A DNA stretch of 11,572 nt from Candidatus Roizmanbacteria bacterium (GTDB lineage Bacteria; Patescibacteriota; Microgenomatia; UBA1406; GWC2-37-13). This document shows, one piece after another, positions 1 to 8,586 of the stretch (the stretch's first letter is position 1; every line of letters starts with the position of its first letter). The stretch spans positions 22,235 through 33,806 of the forward strand of contig JAPLYR010000096.1 of the NCBI GenBank assembly GCA_026395455.1, in the 5' to 3' direction. Under the pieces are notes generated by a model. It made no database searches and was not told the origin of the DNA. It saw nothing but the letters and a program-made list of their open reading frames with translations. The position numbers were made by a program, and so were the translations under genes.

Positions 1-329
1 TTAATCGCGGCTTCCTTTAGATTATTAATAGTGTTGAGTAATCCTTCAGGCTTAAAAACTCCTCCCTCTAGATATATATCCTTAGCTAAAACTACTTCCA
101 ATTGTTTACTATTAATATAGTCCGTTATTTTAAATCCAGCGTTTTCAAATTGGAATATAACCTCTTCTTTTGAATTTTCGCCCGCAACATATATACATTT
201 ATTTTTATTCATCAATCCATCCATAAGGAACGGAACTACAAAGGAAAACTGCTGTTCCTTATTTTGATAAATAGAACAAATGTGATCTCCTAATTTAATA
301 TCCTTTATGTCTAAAATATTTGGACTCAT
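1..329 (-). CDS. MEDS-domain sensor protein, C-terminal part beyond window
   Basis: This frame is open from an ATG at 329 to the left edge, giving 109 residues and no stop, so the C-terminal part is missing. Residues 14-18 read GDHIC, followed by SIYQNKEQQ, PFLMDGL and a YVAGENSKEEV stretch. This order is typical of the N-terminal half of the MEDS domain (methanogen/methylotroph DcmR sensory domain), a RecA-like-looking sensory module found in regulators and histidine kinases. In the family it is a cytoplasmic ligand or redox sensor of unknown ligand. The gene starts 15 bp after the hemerythrin stop and is the last visible gene of the four-gene sensory operon. No Shine-Dalgarno precedes it. 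Whether a kinase, PAS or DNA-binding part follows cannot be seen. Family assignment is fairly sure; function is inferred. Confidence 0.82.
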   Translation of the reverse strand, partial: MSPNILDIKDIKLGDHICSIYQNKEQQFSFVVPFLMDGLMNKNKCIYVAGENSKEEVIFQFENAGFKITDYINSKQLEVVLAKDIYLEGGVFKPEGLLNTINNLKEAAI

Positions 330-344
330 TGATATATATAATTA

Positions 345-758
345 CTATTTTAATCCATGCTCTTTAAAACAAGCAACGTATTTCTGATCTTCGACCATCA
401 AATGATCAATAAGCCAGTCTTCTAAAAAATTAACCAAATTAAAAGCAAGCGAGATGGTGTCTTCTTTATAAAGACTAACAAGTGTTTCTAGTTTTACATT
501 AAATTCTCTATGCTTAGCTTTATGTTCTTCCTTATGCTCATAATTAAACTTCTCAAAATAGTCTTCTTCGGTTTTAAAATGAAATTGTTTATACTCCACT
601 AATGCCTTTATTATGGAATCGACATCACTCTGTGTGGGCTTACTAGTCAACAATTCAATTAATCGATTTATAGTATCAAACATTTTTTTATGTTGATTGT
701 CTATCTGTTGTACTCCAACGCTATATTTTTTATCCCATTCAAGTTTAGAGGTTGTCAT
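345..758 (-). CDS. Bacteriohemerythrin (diiron O2-binding protein)
   Basis: A 137-residue single-domain hemerythrin, close to the usual length of bacterial single-domain members. All expected diiron ligands are present with the right spacing: H23, H60, E64 (HFKTE), H79, H83 (HKAKH), H119 and D124 (HLMVED). The WxxxYSVGVQQID start and the four-helix pattern also fit. Such proteins reversibly bind O2 in the cytoplasm and serve as O2 carriers, stores or sensors. It lies 19 bp after the HAMP transducer gene and 15 bp before the MEDS gene on the same strand, so a role as the oxygen-responsive part of this sensory operon is plausible but inferred. It has no fused output domain. No Shine-Dalgarno is visible before the ATG at 758; the upstream sequence is a TA-rich run. 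Confidence 0.95.
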   Translation of the reverse strand: MTTSKLEWDKKYSVGVQQIDNQHKKMFDTINRLIELLTSKPTQSDVDSIIKALVEYKQFHFKTEEDYFEKFNYEHKEEHKAKHREFNVKLETLVSLYKEDTISLAFNLVNFLEDWLIDHLMVEDQKYVACFKEHGLK

Positions 759-777
759 AGTTGCTATATACTATATA

Positions 778-1716
778 TTAAATTTTCCCTTGTTGCGTAC
801 TTGATTTTTCAAGTTCGCTAATTCTCTTTTTGAGTTCAATCATCTTAATTTCCCTATCAACCATAAACTGATTTAATTTCTTAAGTTCTGTGTTCCCTTT
901 TTCAAGTGCATCTTTTGAATTAGTAATCTGAATGTTTGAATAATTTAATTTGGTAATCATGTCTTTAATATTACTTACCATCATCACAAATGAGCGAGAC
1001 AGAATTCCCACTTCATCCTTTTGATTAATGAGCTCTTGGTTAATTAAGACATCCATTTTTCCAGCAGCCACTTGTTCAACAGATTTTGTGAGATTTTCGA
1101 TTGGGTTTATGAGCTGTTTCGAAAAATTGCTCGCATAAATAATCATTACAAAAATAACAAAAAGAAAAATGATTGATGATGTAGTAAGGGTAATAAAGTA
1201 AAGCTGTTGGGATTTTTCTTGAGTACTAGATAAATATTCAAGCTCCTTTTGTAAAAGTGCCGCTGTATTGCTTTGTACAAACTCATTTTCTTTATGTGCT
1301 TGAGCAAAATGTTCAGAAAAATTCTGAAGCTCACTTGCTTTTATTTCTTTTAACCCAGTGTCACATTCACTTATAACCTTATTTGCTGTATGCTCAACAC
1401 CAAGAAGTAGCATTTTACTTTCCTCAGATACAATTCTTGTTTTTAGCAAAATAATAACATTGAGGAGATTTTCTTTTATTGTCTGATATTCAGAAAAAAA
1501 TTGCATATTTCCAGAATTTTTTCCAGCATTATTATATGTTTTAATTAAATTATCTGACATTGAAATAATACTGTATTCCATCGTCATCGTTTGAATTATC
1601 CTTTGATTTTGATAGACATTAAGCTGGTTTATCAAAAACATGATTGCAGCAAATACACCAATAACTAAAATCATTCCAATTAGGGTATTTTGAATCCTGT
1701 TTCTGATACTATTCAC
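778..1716 (-). CDS. Two-TM HAMP-domain transducer with terminal coiled coil, no catalytic output
   Basis: A 312-residue inner-membrane protein. A first TM helix spans about residues 10-30, an extracytoplasmic all-helical region about 31-170, and a second TM about 172-195. A HAMP domain follows at about 196-252, with the conserved proline in INPIENLT, then QVAAGKMDV and DEVGILSRSF. A coiled coil occupies about 265-305. The architecture up to HAMP is that of chemoreceptors and sensor kinases, but the protein ends at residue 312 with no MCP signalling, HisKA/HATPase or GGDEF part. The final helix (about 279-305) closely resembles the C-terminus of the PAS protein at 4865-5710. The start is GTG at 1716, chosen because it gives the usual short basic stretch before TM1. 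It lies 22 bp after the XylF-like gene and 19 bp before the hemerythrin gene. Signal partner unknown. Confidence 0.88.
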   Translation of the reverse strand: MNSIRNRIQNTLIGMILVIGVFAAIMFLINQLNVYQNQRIIQTMTMEYSIISMSDNLIKTYNNAGKNSGNMQFFSEYQTIKENLLNVIILLKTRIVSEESKMLLLGVEHTANKVISECDTGLKEIKASELQNFSEHFAQAHKENEFVQSNTAALLQKELEYLSSTQEKSQQLYFITLTTSSIIFLFVIFVMIIYASNFSKQLINPIENLTKSVEQVAAGKMDVLINQELINQKDEVGILSRSFVMMVSNIKDMITKLNYSNIQITNSKDALEKGNTELKKLNQFMVDREIKMIELKKRISELEKSSTQQGKI

Positions 1717-1738
1717 AATATTTTCTATTATTAATATT

Positions 1739-2791
1739 TTATTTAATTACTTGATATACCTGATTCTTTGAGTGAAAACCATCTTTAATAACAGTTTCGT
1801 CAATATTATTTTTTGTAACCATGATTGGATCAAGGAAAAAGGATTTCACTTCTATTTTCCCATTATATGTTTTACTATTTGATTGGGGAGTCTCTCCTTT
1901 TGCAAGCTCAACTGCTATTTCTGCTGCTTTTTGAGCAAGTGCAGGAATTGGTTTATACACTGTTAATGTTTGAGTTCCCTGGATTACTCGCTGAACTGCA
2001 GATAATTCTGCATCTTGACCTGATACGGGGATCCTTCCGTCAAGGTTATATTCTTTGAGCGCACGAATTGCTCCAAATGCTGTGCCATCATTTGCAGCAA
2101 CAACTGCATCTAATTTCCCACCAGTAGCTAAGTATTTTTTAATAGTATTGTATGACTCTTCTGGTTTCCAATCGGTCATAAATTCGTCAATAACAAGTTT
2201 TACAGATCCTTTTTTGATAAGTGGATTTAAAACCTCCATTGATCCTTGTTTTAAGAGTGAGGCATTATTATCTGTTGGAGCTCCTCCAATATAGGCAAAG
2301 TTCCCTGTATTTTTAACTGACGTAACCCCTTGCGCTTCCATATTCCCAACTTTTACATTATCGAATGAAATGTAAAAATCTACATCTGAATTTTTTATTA
2401 ATCTATCATAGGCAACAATTTTTATGTTTGCCTTATGAGCTAACTCAACAACTCCAGCGATTTTTTCACTATCGTAAGGGGCTATGACAATAACATCAAC
2501 ACTCTGACTAATTAAATTCTCTACTTGTGTATTTTGTAGCTCCGCATTGGAATTTGCTGATACAACTTGAGTATACACGCCTAGTTTTTTTGCTGCTTCA
2601 ACAAACAGATCTCTATCTTTTTGCCACCGCTCTTCTCTGAGGTCGCCAAGCGCAAACCCGATGCGGATACTGTTATTTGGATTAACTTGAGTATCTACTG
2701 GTGGTTTGATGAGGATAAATTTTATAATTACACCGATTATTATAATGCCAATTATAAGGCTAGTAATGACGAAAGTATTGGTTTTACTCAT
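1739..2791 (-). CDS. xylF: Membrane-anchored XylF-like sugar (D-xylose type) binding protein
   Basis: A 350-residue type I periplasmic-binding-fold protein. Residues 8-28 form a hydrophobic helix with no lipobox cysteine, so it is probably an uncleaved membrane anchor. From residue 42 the sequence follows XylF closely: IGFALGDLREERWQKDRD, an ENLISQSVDVIVIAPYD segment, VAYDRLI, DFYISFDNVKVG, GGAPTDNNA, VVAANDGTAFG, PVSGQDAE, TQTLTVYKP, and the C-terminal NNIDETVIKDGFH. The family binds D-xylose, usually for the XylFGH ABC importer, but no ATPase or permease gene is in this window. In Clostridium, a membrane-anchored XylFII is instead the ligand-binding subunit of the LytS sensor kinase. The co-directional HAMP transducer 22 bp downstream makes such a sensory role attractive here (inference). 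It is the first gene of the operon; a 14-bp palindrome lies 19 bp before its ATG. Confidence 0.92.
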   Translation of the reverse strand: MSKTNTFVITSLIIGIIIIGVIIKFILIKPPVDTQVNPNNSIRIGFALGDLREERWQKDRDLFVEAAKKLGVYTQVVSANSNAELQNTQVENLISQSVDVIVIAPYDSEKIAGVVELAHKANIKIVAYDRLIKNSDVDFYISFDNVKVGNMEAQGVTSVKNTGNFAYIGGAPTDNNASLLKQGSMEVLNPLIKKGSVKLVIDEFMTDWKPEESYNTIKKYLATGGKLDAVVAANDGTAFGAIRALKEYNLDGRIPVSGQDAELSAVQRVIQGTQTLTVYKPIPALAQKAAEIAVELAKGETPQSNSKTYNGKIEVKSFFLDPIMVTKNNIDETVIKDGFHSKNQVYQVIK

Positions 2792-4858: not shown

Positions 4859-4868
4859 AACAGTATGG
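4852..4868. repeat. Perfect inverted repeat across -10 and start codon of the PAS gene
   Basis: CCATACT (4852-4858), AAC spacer, AGTATGG (4862-4868): a perfect 7-bp inverted repeat. It covers the likely -10 hexamer and the ATG (4865-4867) and lies in the gap divergent to mntP. It may be an operator or a hairpin hiding the start codon; chance is possible. Confidence 0.45.
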
Positions 4869-5710
4869 ATACATCTATTCCTAGTGAAATATATCTACAG
4901 ATTATAGACCAGATGCCAAACCCAATTTGGAGATCTGGCATCGATGCGAAATGTAACTTCTTTAATAAAGCCTGGTTCAATTTTACAGGGAAAACAATAG
5001 CTGAAGAAATTGGAGATGGGTGGGCAAAAGGTGTACATAAAGAAGATTTTGATATGTGTCTTAAGATCTATCTTGAGGCTTTCAAAAAAAGACAGTCATT
5101 TGAGATGGAATATCGTCTTATGCACAAAGATGGAACATATCATTGGATACTTGATTGTGGATCCCCTTTTTTTGATAGTGACCAGAAATTTTCTGGTTAT
5201 ATTGGGTCTTGTTATGATATCAATGAAAACAAAGAGTACAAGCTTTTATTCTCAAACATGGCAAGTGGTTTTGCATATCATAAAATAATCACTGATGAGT
5301 TAAGCGCTCCTATCAATTATGAATTTATTGATATTAATAGGCCCTTTGAACAGATTATTGGACTACATAAAAATGATGTCATTGGAAAAAAAGTAACAGA
5401 AGTTCTTCCTGGAATCGAAAAAGATCCTGCAAATTGGATAAAAAAGTATGGTGAAGTTGCGGTAAATGGAACAGAGATAAAATTCGAAAATTTTTCTCCT
5501 CTTTTAAATAAGTGGTTTTATGTGTCTGCATATGCACCAAAAAAAGGATATTTTGTGACTATTTTTGAAGATATTACTGTACGTAAATTAGCAGAAGATA
5601 ACCTGCAAAAAAAATTCGCAGAATTGGAAAAGATGAATCAATTAATGATTGGAAGAGAAATAAAAATGGTTGAATTAAAAAAGCAAGTCGAATCTCTCCA
5701 AAAAAAATAA
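4865..5710 (+). CDS. Tandem PAS-domain protein with terminal coiled coil, no kinase domain
   Basis: A 281-residue soluble protein. PAS 1 spans about residues 8-124 and is of the PAS_3/PAS_4 type (FNKAWFNFTG, DGWAKGVHKED, EMEYRLMHKDGTYHWILDCG, GYIGSCYDI). PAS 2 spans about 126-240 (EFIDINRPFEQIIGL, VIGKKVTEVLPGI, FVTIFEDITVRK). A coiled coil covers about 241-281 and contains MNQLMIGREIKMVELKK. PAS pairs like this normally sit in front of histidine kinases or diguanylate cyclases, but the stop follows the coiled coil directly and no catalytic domain is present. The last 27 residues match the end of the HAMP transducer at 778-1716 (16 identities), suggesting a common partner. No TM segment is seen. 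The ligand is unknown. The gene is divergent from mntP and is followed 39 bp later by the glycosyltransferase gene. Confidence 0.9.
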   Translation: MDTSIPSEIYLQIIDQMPNPIWRSGIDAKCNFFNKAWFNFTGKTIAEEIGDGWAKGVHKEDFDMCLKIYLEAFKKRQSFEMEYRLMHKDGTYHWILDCGSPFFDSDQKFSGYIGSCYDINENKEYKLLFSNMASGFAYHKIITDELSAPINYEFIDINRPFEQIIGLHKNDVIGKKVTEVLPGIEKDPANWIKKYGEVAVNGTEIKFENFSPLLNKWFYVSAYAPKKGYFVTIFEDITVRKLAEDNLQKKFAELEKMNQLMIGREIKMVELKKQVESLQKK

Positions 5711-8290: not shown

Positions 8291-8306
8291 ATTAAAAGGT
8301 TTTAAT
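8291..8306. terminator. Weak AT-only inverted repeat between convergent genes
   Basis: ATTAAAA (8291-8297) and TTTTAAT (8300-8306) pair around GG. A T-run follows at about 8310-8316 on the plus strand. The stem has no GC pairs, so this is at best a weak intrinsic terminator for the nucleotidyltransferase gene. It overlaps the stop of the facing gene. Confidence 0.25.
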
Positions 8307-8586
8307 TAGTTTTTTTCTTTCGATAGAGAAAGATTTGATAGACGACTGCTCCCGTTGTAATAATTCCTAGCCCTTGTCCAAAAACGAGCACCATATCTTT
8401 CTGCAGAACACCATGAAGCGTCCATAAGACATATACAAGGAAAGATAAAATATAAAAGGAAGTTGAAACTCCTTCTGTTGACTTTCTTTTATAATTTTTG
8501 TGTATCTGATCTGGAAAACCTACAACTTTTACTAGAATAGAAAGAATTGTTGTTAAAAATCCAATAATGAGAGCAAAGTTTACCAT
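8302..8586 (-). CDS. PQ-loop / SemiSWEET-like small membrane transporter
   Basis: A 94-residue protein with three TM helices (about 4-24, 43-62 and 67-87), the size of a single SemiSWEET half-transporter. The conserved core after TM1 is VVGFPDQIHKNYKRKSTEGV, then STSFYILSFLVYVLWTLHGV, as in MtN3/PQ-loop proteins; the usual PQ pair reads PDQ here. TM3 starts FGQGLGIITTG, where SemiSWEETs normally have an Asn (NAxT), so sugar binding is not assured. SemiSWEETs work as dimers for facilitated sugar diffusion. It is divergent from the methyltransferase. An extended -10 lies 5 nt before the ATG, so the mRNA is probably leaderless. A general PQ-loop protein of unknown substrate is the safer name. 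Confidence 0.87.
   Translation of the reverse strand: MVNFALIIGFLTTILSILVKVVGFPDQIHKNYKRKSTEGVSTSFYILSFLVYVLWTLHGVLQKDMVLVFGQGLGIITTGAVVYQIFLYRKKKTN

Follow-up and report, generated by a model that had tools for sequence, protein, structure and literature searches.

A XylF-like binding protein and a kinase-less HAMP receptor with a conserved C-terminal tail, the probable input half of a split two-component sensor in Candidatus Roizmanbacteria

To which partner does a membrane receptor without a kinase hand over its signal? This question is raised by a row of four genes in a genome bin of Candidatus Roizmanbacteria (0.98 Mb, 85% complete). Among the named relatives found, a bin of Candidatus Roizmanbacteria from Lac Pavin stands closest to it. 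The window, meaning the whole stretch of 11,572 nucleotides analysed here, corresponds to bases 22235-33806 of contig C66. Its minus strand harbours, in this order, genes for a XylF-like D-xylose-type substrate-binding protein (2791-1739), a receptor with a HAMP domain (1716-778), a hemerythrin (758-345) and a MEDS protein (from 329 leftward), separated by gaps of 22, 19 and 15 bp. The original prediction had described these four co-directional genes with correct coordinates, order and gaps. Its interpretation of the row as one sensory operon is partly supported, and the focus shifts from the four-gene operon to kinase-less receptors with a common tail. The operon probably supplies the input side of a two-component sensor that is divided over separate proteins, in which XylF with bound xylose would act on the HAMP receptor and the C-terminal tail of the receptor would dock on a common histidine kinase, here named NILED kinase after a coil described below.

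The HAMP receptor (778-1716, minus strand) has a predicted length of 312 amino acids (aa) and consists of a first transmembrane segment (TM1), a four-helix ectodomain, a second segment (TM2), a HAMP domain and one continuous helix running into the tail; the transmembrane segments were read by eye. Its start codon is GTG, and the pattern [MI][NH][ST][IL] occurs at that place in 21 of 25 aligned sequences, the window's included. The ectodomain (about residues 34-167; 1216-1617) was modelled with AlphaFold (mean pLDDT 84.9), and its fold matches LytSN (5xsj_L/5xsd_L), TorS-TorT entries and other four-helix sensor domains. These matches cover residues 14-175, and the tail part was hardly tested in this comparison. 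The LytSN match counts as supportive, because four-helix bundles match one another widely. The HAMP domain (residues 199-251; 964-1122) is borderline against PF00672 (24.9 bits, cut-off 25), yet the family profile matches HAMP structures. By sequence, the solved structures related to the receptor are mostly HAMP, chemoreceptor and sensor-kinase chains, with a few weak rows of other coiled coils. Neither HisKA nor HATPase was found in 778-1716, and the protein is not a histidine kinase by this test. The earlier description as a two-transmembrane HAMP protein without an output domain holds for the absence of a kinase core; it overlooked the highly conserved C-terminal tail.

The tail spans about residues 270-308 (793-909, minus strand), with NTELKKLNQFMVDREIKMIELKKRISELEKSSTQ from residue 275. 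It is conserved in A1, an alignment of 25 sequences of the HAMP family, including that of the window, gathered by homology and not by motif. The consensus of the tail is ..ELEKxNxLMVGRELKMIELKxxIxxL. Of the 26 columns that are invariant in A1, nine belong to the tail. Residues R288, E289, K291, M292 and K296 are invariant across the 25 sequences, none of which extends more than 40 residues past the tail motif. A search of 144 relatives with the HAMP protein gave matches outside the genus only at its C-terminal end. Full-length homologues were present in two of the 144 (the own genome and G002), and XylF in the same two.

A scan of species genomes with the A1 profile gave at least 156 confirmed stretches, from which the best 80 loci were kept. 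The loci were chosen by conserved words, not by the position of the motif within the protein; because the scan words come from the conserved stretch, tail conservation in these loci is partly chosen and its position in the protein is not. The tail motif matched 121 times in the 80 loci. In 120 cases it sits 14-51 residues from the C-terminus, counted from the motif RE (one of these proteins runs off its contig), and the 121st arose by chance as an additional match in a protein with a genuine tail. Two proteins of the window possess the motif N..[MA][VI][GDN]RE[LI]KM[IV]ELK, namely the HAMP receptor and a PAS-PAS protein on the plus strand (4865-5710; PAS_3 5.4e-18), whose tail lies at 5591-5707 (tail match 7.0e-19, own row included in profile A3). 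Among the resulting 122 tail proteins, HAMP was found in 65, PAS_9 in 37, dCache_1 in 22, and CHASE4 and Response_reg in four each, besides GAF and others. The kinase core (HisKA PF00512, HATPase_c) is not among the 25 families listed, out of 50, for these proteins, and HisKA_7TM, detected in three of them, corresponds to the N-terminal membrane region and not to a kinase core. The tail is present in seven of the 144 relatives, six of which were first detected with the HAMP protein alone, and in 43 of 379 genomes of the phylum (E 0.001). It probably plugs kinase-less receptors into a separate common kinase.

A natural fusion in a Woesearchaeon (L042) indicates what the tail replaces. There, a 554-aa histidine kinase with HisKA and HATPase_c (L042:6007-7671) follows a XylF that is 56% identical to the window XylF. 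The first 268 residues of this kinase align with the HAMP receptor at 29% identity, and the alignment ends at receptor residue 268, just ahead of the tail, in which residue 275 is the first invariant one. Thus, the ectodomain also exists in a kinase receptor and the tail occupies the kinase position. Judged from these alignments, in the HAMP receptor the tail stands in place of the kinase.

Histidine kinases near tail genes possess a coil, AxLNILEDxEEE, ahead of PAS or HisKA, for which the name NILED is used here. By pattern, 33 of 42 such kinases have the coil; the initial 43 kinase-pattern open reading frames (ORFs) had included L035_6 (236 aa), a false match that does not enter this count. 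The first pattern missed the kinase of the window's own genome, which was found by a coil profile built from 18 of the kinases in the tail loci. Profile search (hmmsearch) of 845 ORFs revealed 117 with the tail and 41 with NILED, the latter in 41 of the 80 loci, and none with both. For 25 of the 41 NILED genes, the gene immediately ahead is a co-directional tail gene (distances of -38 to +35 bp), and for none of the 41 does a tail gene come immediately after; one of the preceding tail genes (L099) has a slightly different motif. Receiver-only genes are present in 31 of the 41 NILED loci versus one of the 39 other loci. In L047, L048 and L059, a gene of a family of about 205 aa separates the coil kinase from the tail gene; the family comprises L047:6552-7169, without Pfam match, and relatives in L048, L051, L059 and L077.

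Tail and coil also co-occur across genomes. Among the 144 relatives NILED was found in five, all within the seven tail genomes (P 4e-8, kinship ignored), and HATPase_c in 142. The best NILED score in this set was 32.6 bits, so it is hardly a row of the profile itself. Among the 379 genomes of the phylum, 37 have NILED (E 0.01) and 33 have both elements (Fisher 3e-34, kinship ignored). When the 15 strongest NILED genomes, which are possible self-matches, are left out, 18 of the remaining 22 keep the tail (P 7e-20, kinship likewise ignored). Co-positive genomes average 2.1 tail matches against 1.2 coil matches, which fits many inputs feeding one kinase.

The same data bear on a simpler explanation, according to which the tail is a coiled-coil end of a general kind that only holds receptors together as dimers, lying near NILED kinases through clustering of sensor genes and joint transfer. 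The heptad register of the tail is regular, with the conserved R and M at core positions (114 tails), and 29 of the 33 co-positive genomes have a tail-coil pair within 4 kb on one contig, both of which would agree with this explanation. The invariance of R and E in the 114 tails is no result, because the collecting pattern fixed both residues; the independent evidence is A1, where the five residues are invariant in sequences gathered by homology and speak against a generic coil. The variety of receptor types that end in the tail, the gene polarity of 25 to 0 and the lack of any ORF with both motifs likewise argue against it, as do the four co-positive genomes with only unlinked copies and the operon itself, which carries a tail with no kinase nearby. 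We consider the generic explanation unlikely.

The window's genome itself contains a candidate partner kinase. This genome has three tails, on the HAMP receptor of the operon, on the PAS-PAS protein at 4865-5710 and on a CHASE4-PAS protein of contig C9, and a single NILED match (G000:C9:9411-9512, E 6e-5), next to the CHASE4-PAS-tail gene. The C9 kinase comprises HAMP, coil, PAS, HisKA and HATPase_c, and a 189-aa dCache_1 ORF lies between it and the tail gene. In the sister species the corresponding frame is one ORF of 773 aa, likewise located after the CHASE4-PAS gene; the tail of the latter coincides with a run of N. Among genomes with XylF, three of the four with split XylF-HAMP-tail forms possess a NILED kinase elsewhere, with a weak match (19.7 bits) in G505.

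Several observations weigh against the partnership of tail and NILED kinase. The frame of the C9 kinase is broken into ORFs of 189 and 598 aa (L140:4323-6716), so that it could be defective or reflect an assembly error, and with 85% completeness the bin may lack a further kinase. G503, one of the split forms, has no true NILED kinase, and in G506 the coil match is the fused receptor itself. The NILED match obtained in G503 was left out of the count, as it falls at the beginning of a 139-aa ORF that is unrelated. No NILED match was found in 10 of the 43 tail genomes of the phylum and in two of the seven tail relatives, and no tail match in four of the 37 NILED genomes of the phylum. Kinases about 60 bp or less behind tail ORFs in L068 and L080 (Geobacteraceae/Desulfuromonadaceae) and L091 (ANME-2c) have no coil, which means that the coil is variable or that tails have another type of partner as well. 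Finally, most of the co-occurrence comes from the linked pairs, so joint operon transfer explains part of it. In the Geobacteraceae/Desulfuromonadaceae loci L068, L080 and L086, up to six tail receptors were present in one locus, and a second partner type may exist there.

The tail genomes without NILED and the three coil-less kinases would also be expected if the HAMP receptor acted on another output, either an ordinary kinase, one of two on contig C48, or an unknown protein. Two further histidine kinases are indeed encoded on C48, without match to the coil profile, and the operon has no linked kinase. Nevertheless, HATPase_c, present in nearly all of the 144 relatives as given above, does not track the tail, and tail genomes are not rich in kinases, with 2-8 HATPase_c matches versus a median of 3 overall (gyrase-type matches included). 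This alternative appears quite improbable to us.

The first gene of the operon encodes the XylF-like protein (1739-2791, minus strand, 350 aa), with matches to TIGR02634 (6e-111) and PF13407 (1.5e-55). The structures of E. coli XylF (3m9w, 4ywh) align with it over 41-347. The stretches LREERWQKDRD, AYDRLI, GGAPTDNNA, ANDGT, GQDAE and TVYKPI, which we take to contain the sugar contacts, are the same or nearly the same as in E. coli XylF. A hydrophobic anchor without lipobox Cys was read by eye from the translation at about residues 8-28 (2708-2770), in agreement with the N-terminally anchored XylF-like protein proposed originally; the protein is apparently not released. The bacterial relatives displayed have such a hydrophobic stretch, and a lipobox-like Cys was seen by eye in three archaeal partners. 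Five further XylF-like proteins (P0079, P0097, P0100, P0134 and P0139), three of them named as coming from bacteria of the Candidate Phyla Radiation (CPR), are 55-63% identical to the window XylF and have an N-terminal hydrophobic stretch.

Is the neighbourhood of XylF and the HAMP receptor conserved? XylF-like genes adjoin a tail or receptor gene in five of the best 80 loci, in Roizmanbacteria (L021), Aenigmatarchaeota (L022 and L023), WWE3 (L035) and Woesearchaeota (L042). Fifteen of the 17 contigs of at least 2 kb with HAMP homologues (P0002-P0024) match in exact size a contig among the 120 XylF matches listed; when seven small offsets were added to the contig sizes as a control, 0 or 1 matches were obtained. 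A sixteenth contig (18216 bases) also carries XylF, as seen in L021. Equal size is strong but indirect evidence that the HAMP and XylF matches share a contig. XylF was detected in two of the 379 genomes of the phylum (E 1e-6), each time next to a tail HAMP gene. The survey of XylF neighbourhoods that the original prediction had suggested thus revealed a XylF-HAMP pair that, by its gene neighbourhoods, is conserved in CPR bacteria and DPANN archaea. Other binding-protein families are found in tail loci as well, namely NMT1 (L079), SBP_bac_5 (L029) and SBP_bac_3 (G070), and XylF therefore looks like one example of a broader arrangement of binding protein and tail receptor.

XylF could instead be an ordinary transport subunit or a sugar scavenger whose adjacency to the HAMP gene is incidental, and its closeness over the full length to transport-type XylF of known structure would suit this role. 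However, no match to a CUT2-type permease (BPD_transp_2, PF02653) was obtained in the 85% complete bin, whereas 12 of 14 control genomes were positive. The protein scores 370.8 bits against the TIGR02634 xylF equivalog, under the cut-off of 389.55, and with neither that score nor a linked or co-occurring CUT2-type permease the locus does not qualify as a D-xylose ATP-binding cassette (ABC) transporter (XylFGH). No permease gene of this type was seen beside the operon, and neither a transporter gene, which would have spoken against the original prediction, nor a kinase gene adjoins the four genes. That XylF is paired with HAMP receptors of this family across CPR and DPANN, and that it is apparently anchored, also disagrees with transport, and we regard this role as very improbable. 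The window also encodes a 94-aa SemiSWEET-like sugar transporter (8302-8586; PF03083 2.8e-10), in a bin where a CUT2-type permease match is lacking.

The third gene encodes a bacteriohemerythrin of 137 aa (345-758, minus strand), borne out by NF033749 (120.8 bits, cut-off 84) and the sole PF01814 match in the bin. The His/Glu/Asp ligand pattern is present by eye in the translation, and binding of O2 or another redox signal is predicted. Seven hemerythrin-like ORFs were detected in the 80 loci by a profile to which this protein and four of the seven had contributed. Each of the seven, one of which belongs to the sister operon, lies directly beside a tail gene, and in L030, L061, L067 and L070 the hemerythrin gene is flanked by the tail gene on one side and the coil kinase on the other. 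This position supports an O2 or redox input at the same junction, and hemerythrin may contribute such an input where tail and kinase meet. Hemerythrin thus recurs beside tail genes; the four-gene order itself was seen only in the sister species.

The MEDS protein was also correctly recognised from the sequence (PF14417, 66.6 bits, cut-off 29.8). Its N-terminal part (1-329, minus strand; PF14417 positions 1-90) extends left past a run of N, beyond which, outside the window, a second part matches PF14417 positions 102-160 (L002:7819-8124, 41.5 bits). The sister species has one intact MEDS protein of 216 aa. A MEDS protein that carries the tail adjoins a coil kinase in G070; the MEDS protein of the window has no tail, and its connection to the path of tail and kinase is thus a guess. 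A profile for MEDS recurrence was discarded, because it included the tail and 55 of its 56 matches (all but L021) were tail proteins. The G070 cluster (L143:3655-9030) comprises a PAS-tail gene and a CHASE4-type-PAS-tail gene (both by eye), SBP_bac_3 and the coil kinase, with the MEDS-tail gene on the opposite strand.

How stable is the four-gene row itself? It recurs in the sister species (L021/G002), and the search found it nowhere beyond the genus, so the recurrence expected originally is confined to close kin. Omega (NG86) against the sister species, for the three genes covered, is 0.07 for XylF (327 codons), 0.19 for the HAMP receptor and 0.05 for hemerythrin; this purifying selection indicates that the row is not due to chance. 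The DNA of XylF and HAMP is 90-99% identical to the sister species by blocks of 200 bases and the flanks 63-94% (window 100-2724 versus L021:1-2630), which suggests that the pair moved as a unit by recent exchange. The step in identity falls early in the hemerythrin gene; the sister contig begins inside XylF, and the other boundary is unseen. The row ends with MEDS, and the output protein that had been suspected left of position 1 is not there, as the next gene leftward is convergent and encodes a SET-domain protein (L002:7210-7818), with a similar protein in the same place in the sister species. Locus L002 also encodes a protein of 263 aa (L002:1957-2748), whose sole Pfam match is the C-terminal domain of the Fe-only hydrogenase large subunit (PF02906 1e-36).

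Similar to the window, the XylFII-LytS system of Clostridium has the gene of a xylose-binding protein beside a four-helix membrane receptor, and the dedicated binding protein acts on the four-helix ectodomain (Li et al. 2017, cited in PMC6321045), whose LytSN structure the window ectodomain model matches. The window receptor differs in having no kinase and ending in a tail, and the window XylF is close to transport-type XylF. LytS has its own kinase, and judged by predicted domains the window system is not a member of the XylFII-LytS type. In the GlnH-GlnX-PknG system of Corynebacterium, a binding protein and a membrane receptor without typical output domains act on a separate kinase, and GlnX is described as having no HAMP domain and a cytoplasmic C-terminal end of about eight residues (PMC9769921). 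The hand-over to a separate kinase is shared with the proposed window system. The kinase type differs, PknG being a Ser/Thr kinase and the proposed partner a histidine kinase that carries a dedicated coil, and we know of no shared tail family for GlnH-GlnX-PknG. TorT-TorS and LuxP-LuxQ have the kinase fused to the receptor, unlike the separate kinase of the proposed window system. As proposed for the latter, a binding protein there stimulates a sensor kinase (PMC6321045), and TorS-TorT entries are among the fold matches of the modelled ectodomain. The RetS-GacS multikinase network (PMC12148439) resembles the proposal in that a membrane protein acts on the kinase of another protein. RetS itself belongs to the sensor-kinase proteins, unlike the window receptor, which lacks a kinase and has a dedicated tail. 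Chemoreceptor arrays, in which many receptors with a common output end feed one kinase, are similar in this respect; the tail motif is distinct from theirs and C-terminal rather than at a hairpin tip, and the proposed partner is a HisKA-type kinase. As a tail/NILED split sensor-kinase system, the window's genome has both the C-terminal tail motif and a coil kinase in the same genome. No description of the tail-coil pairing was found in titles, abstract starts and motif-string searches; this literature excludes most subscription papers and preprints, and the novelty of the pairing is therefore provisional.

The following path can be proposed. XylF, anchored at the outer face of the membrane, would bind a pentose-type sugar, as its homology suggests. 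The loaded protein may contact the four-helix ectodomain as XylFII does with LytS, which the pairing, the fold and the natural fusion point to. The signal would pass through TM2, HAMP and the continuous helix to the C-terminal tail, and the tail would dock on a separate histidine kinase with the NILED coil ahead of PAS/HisKA, control presumably running from receptor to kinase. The C9 coil kinase may serve this receptor together with the CHASE4-PAS-tail and PAS-PAS-tail receptors and, judging from adjacent receiver genes in other loci, phosphorylate a CheY-like receiver. Hemerythrin might feed an O2 or redox signal into the same junction.

More generally, we lean slightly towards reading tail and NILED coil as a plug and socket by which kinase-less receptors of diverse inputs feed into a single histidine kinase. 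They would form a many-to-one class of split two-component systems that has no name yet. With the same reserve, the inputs would range over XylF-, SBP_bac_3/5- and NMT1-type binding proteins, Cache, CHASE4, PAS, GAF and MEDS, and the taxa over CPR bacteria and DPANN archaea and also Omnitrophota, Elusimicrobia, Nitrospinota and Thermoplasmatota. If this is true, genomes near 1 Mb would gain inputs without extra kinases, and it would be explained how cells with two or three kinases sense many signals. Many HAMP and PAS "sensors without output" of CPR and DPANN would obtain a partner predictable from sequence, and the question of what kinase-less receptors talk to would become directly testable with short peptides. 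The operon would then illustrate xylose sensing by a XylFII-LytS-like receptor that does not share a chain with its kinase, and the tail and coil would offer a natural modular coupling for the building of sensors.

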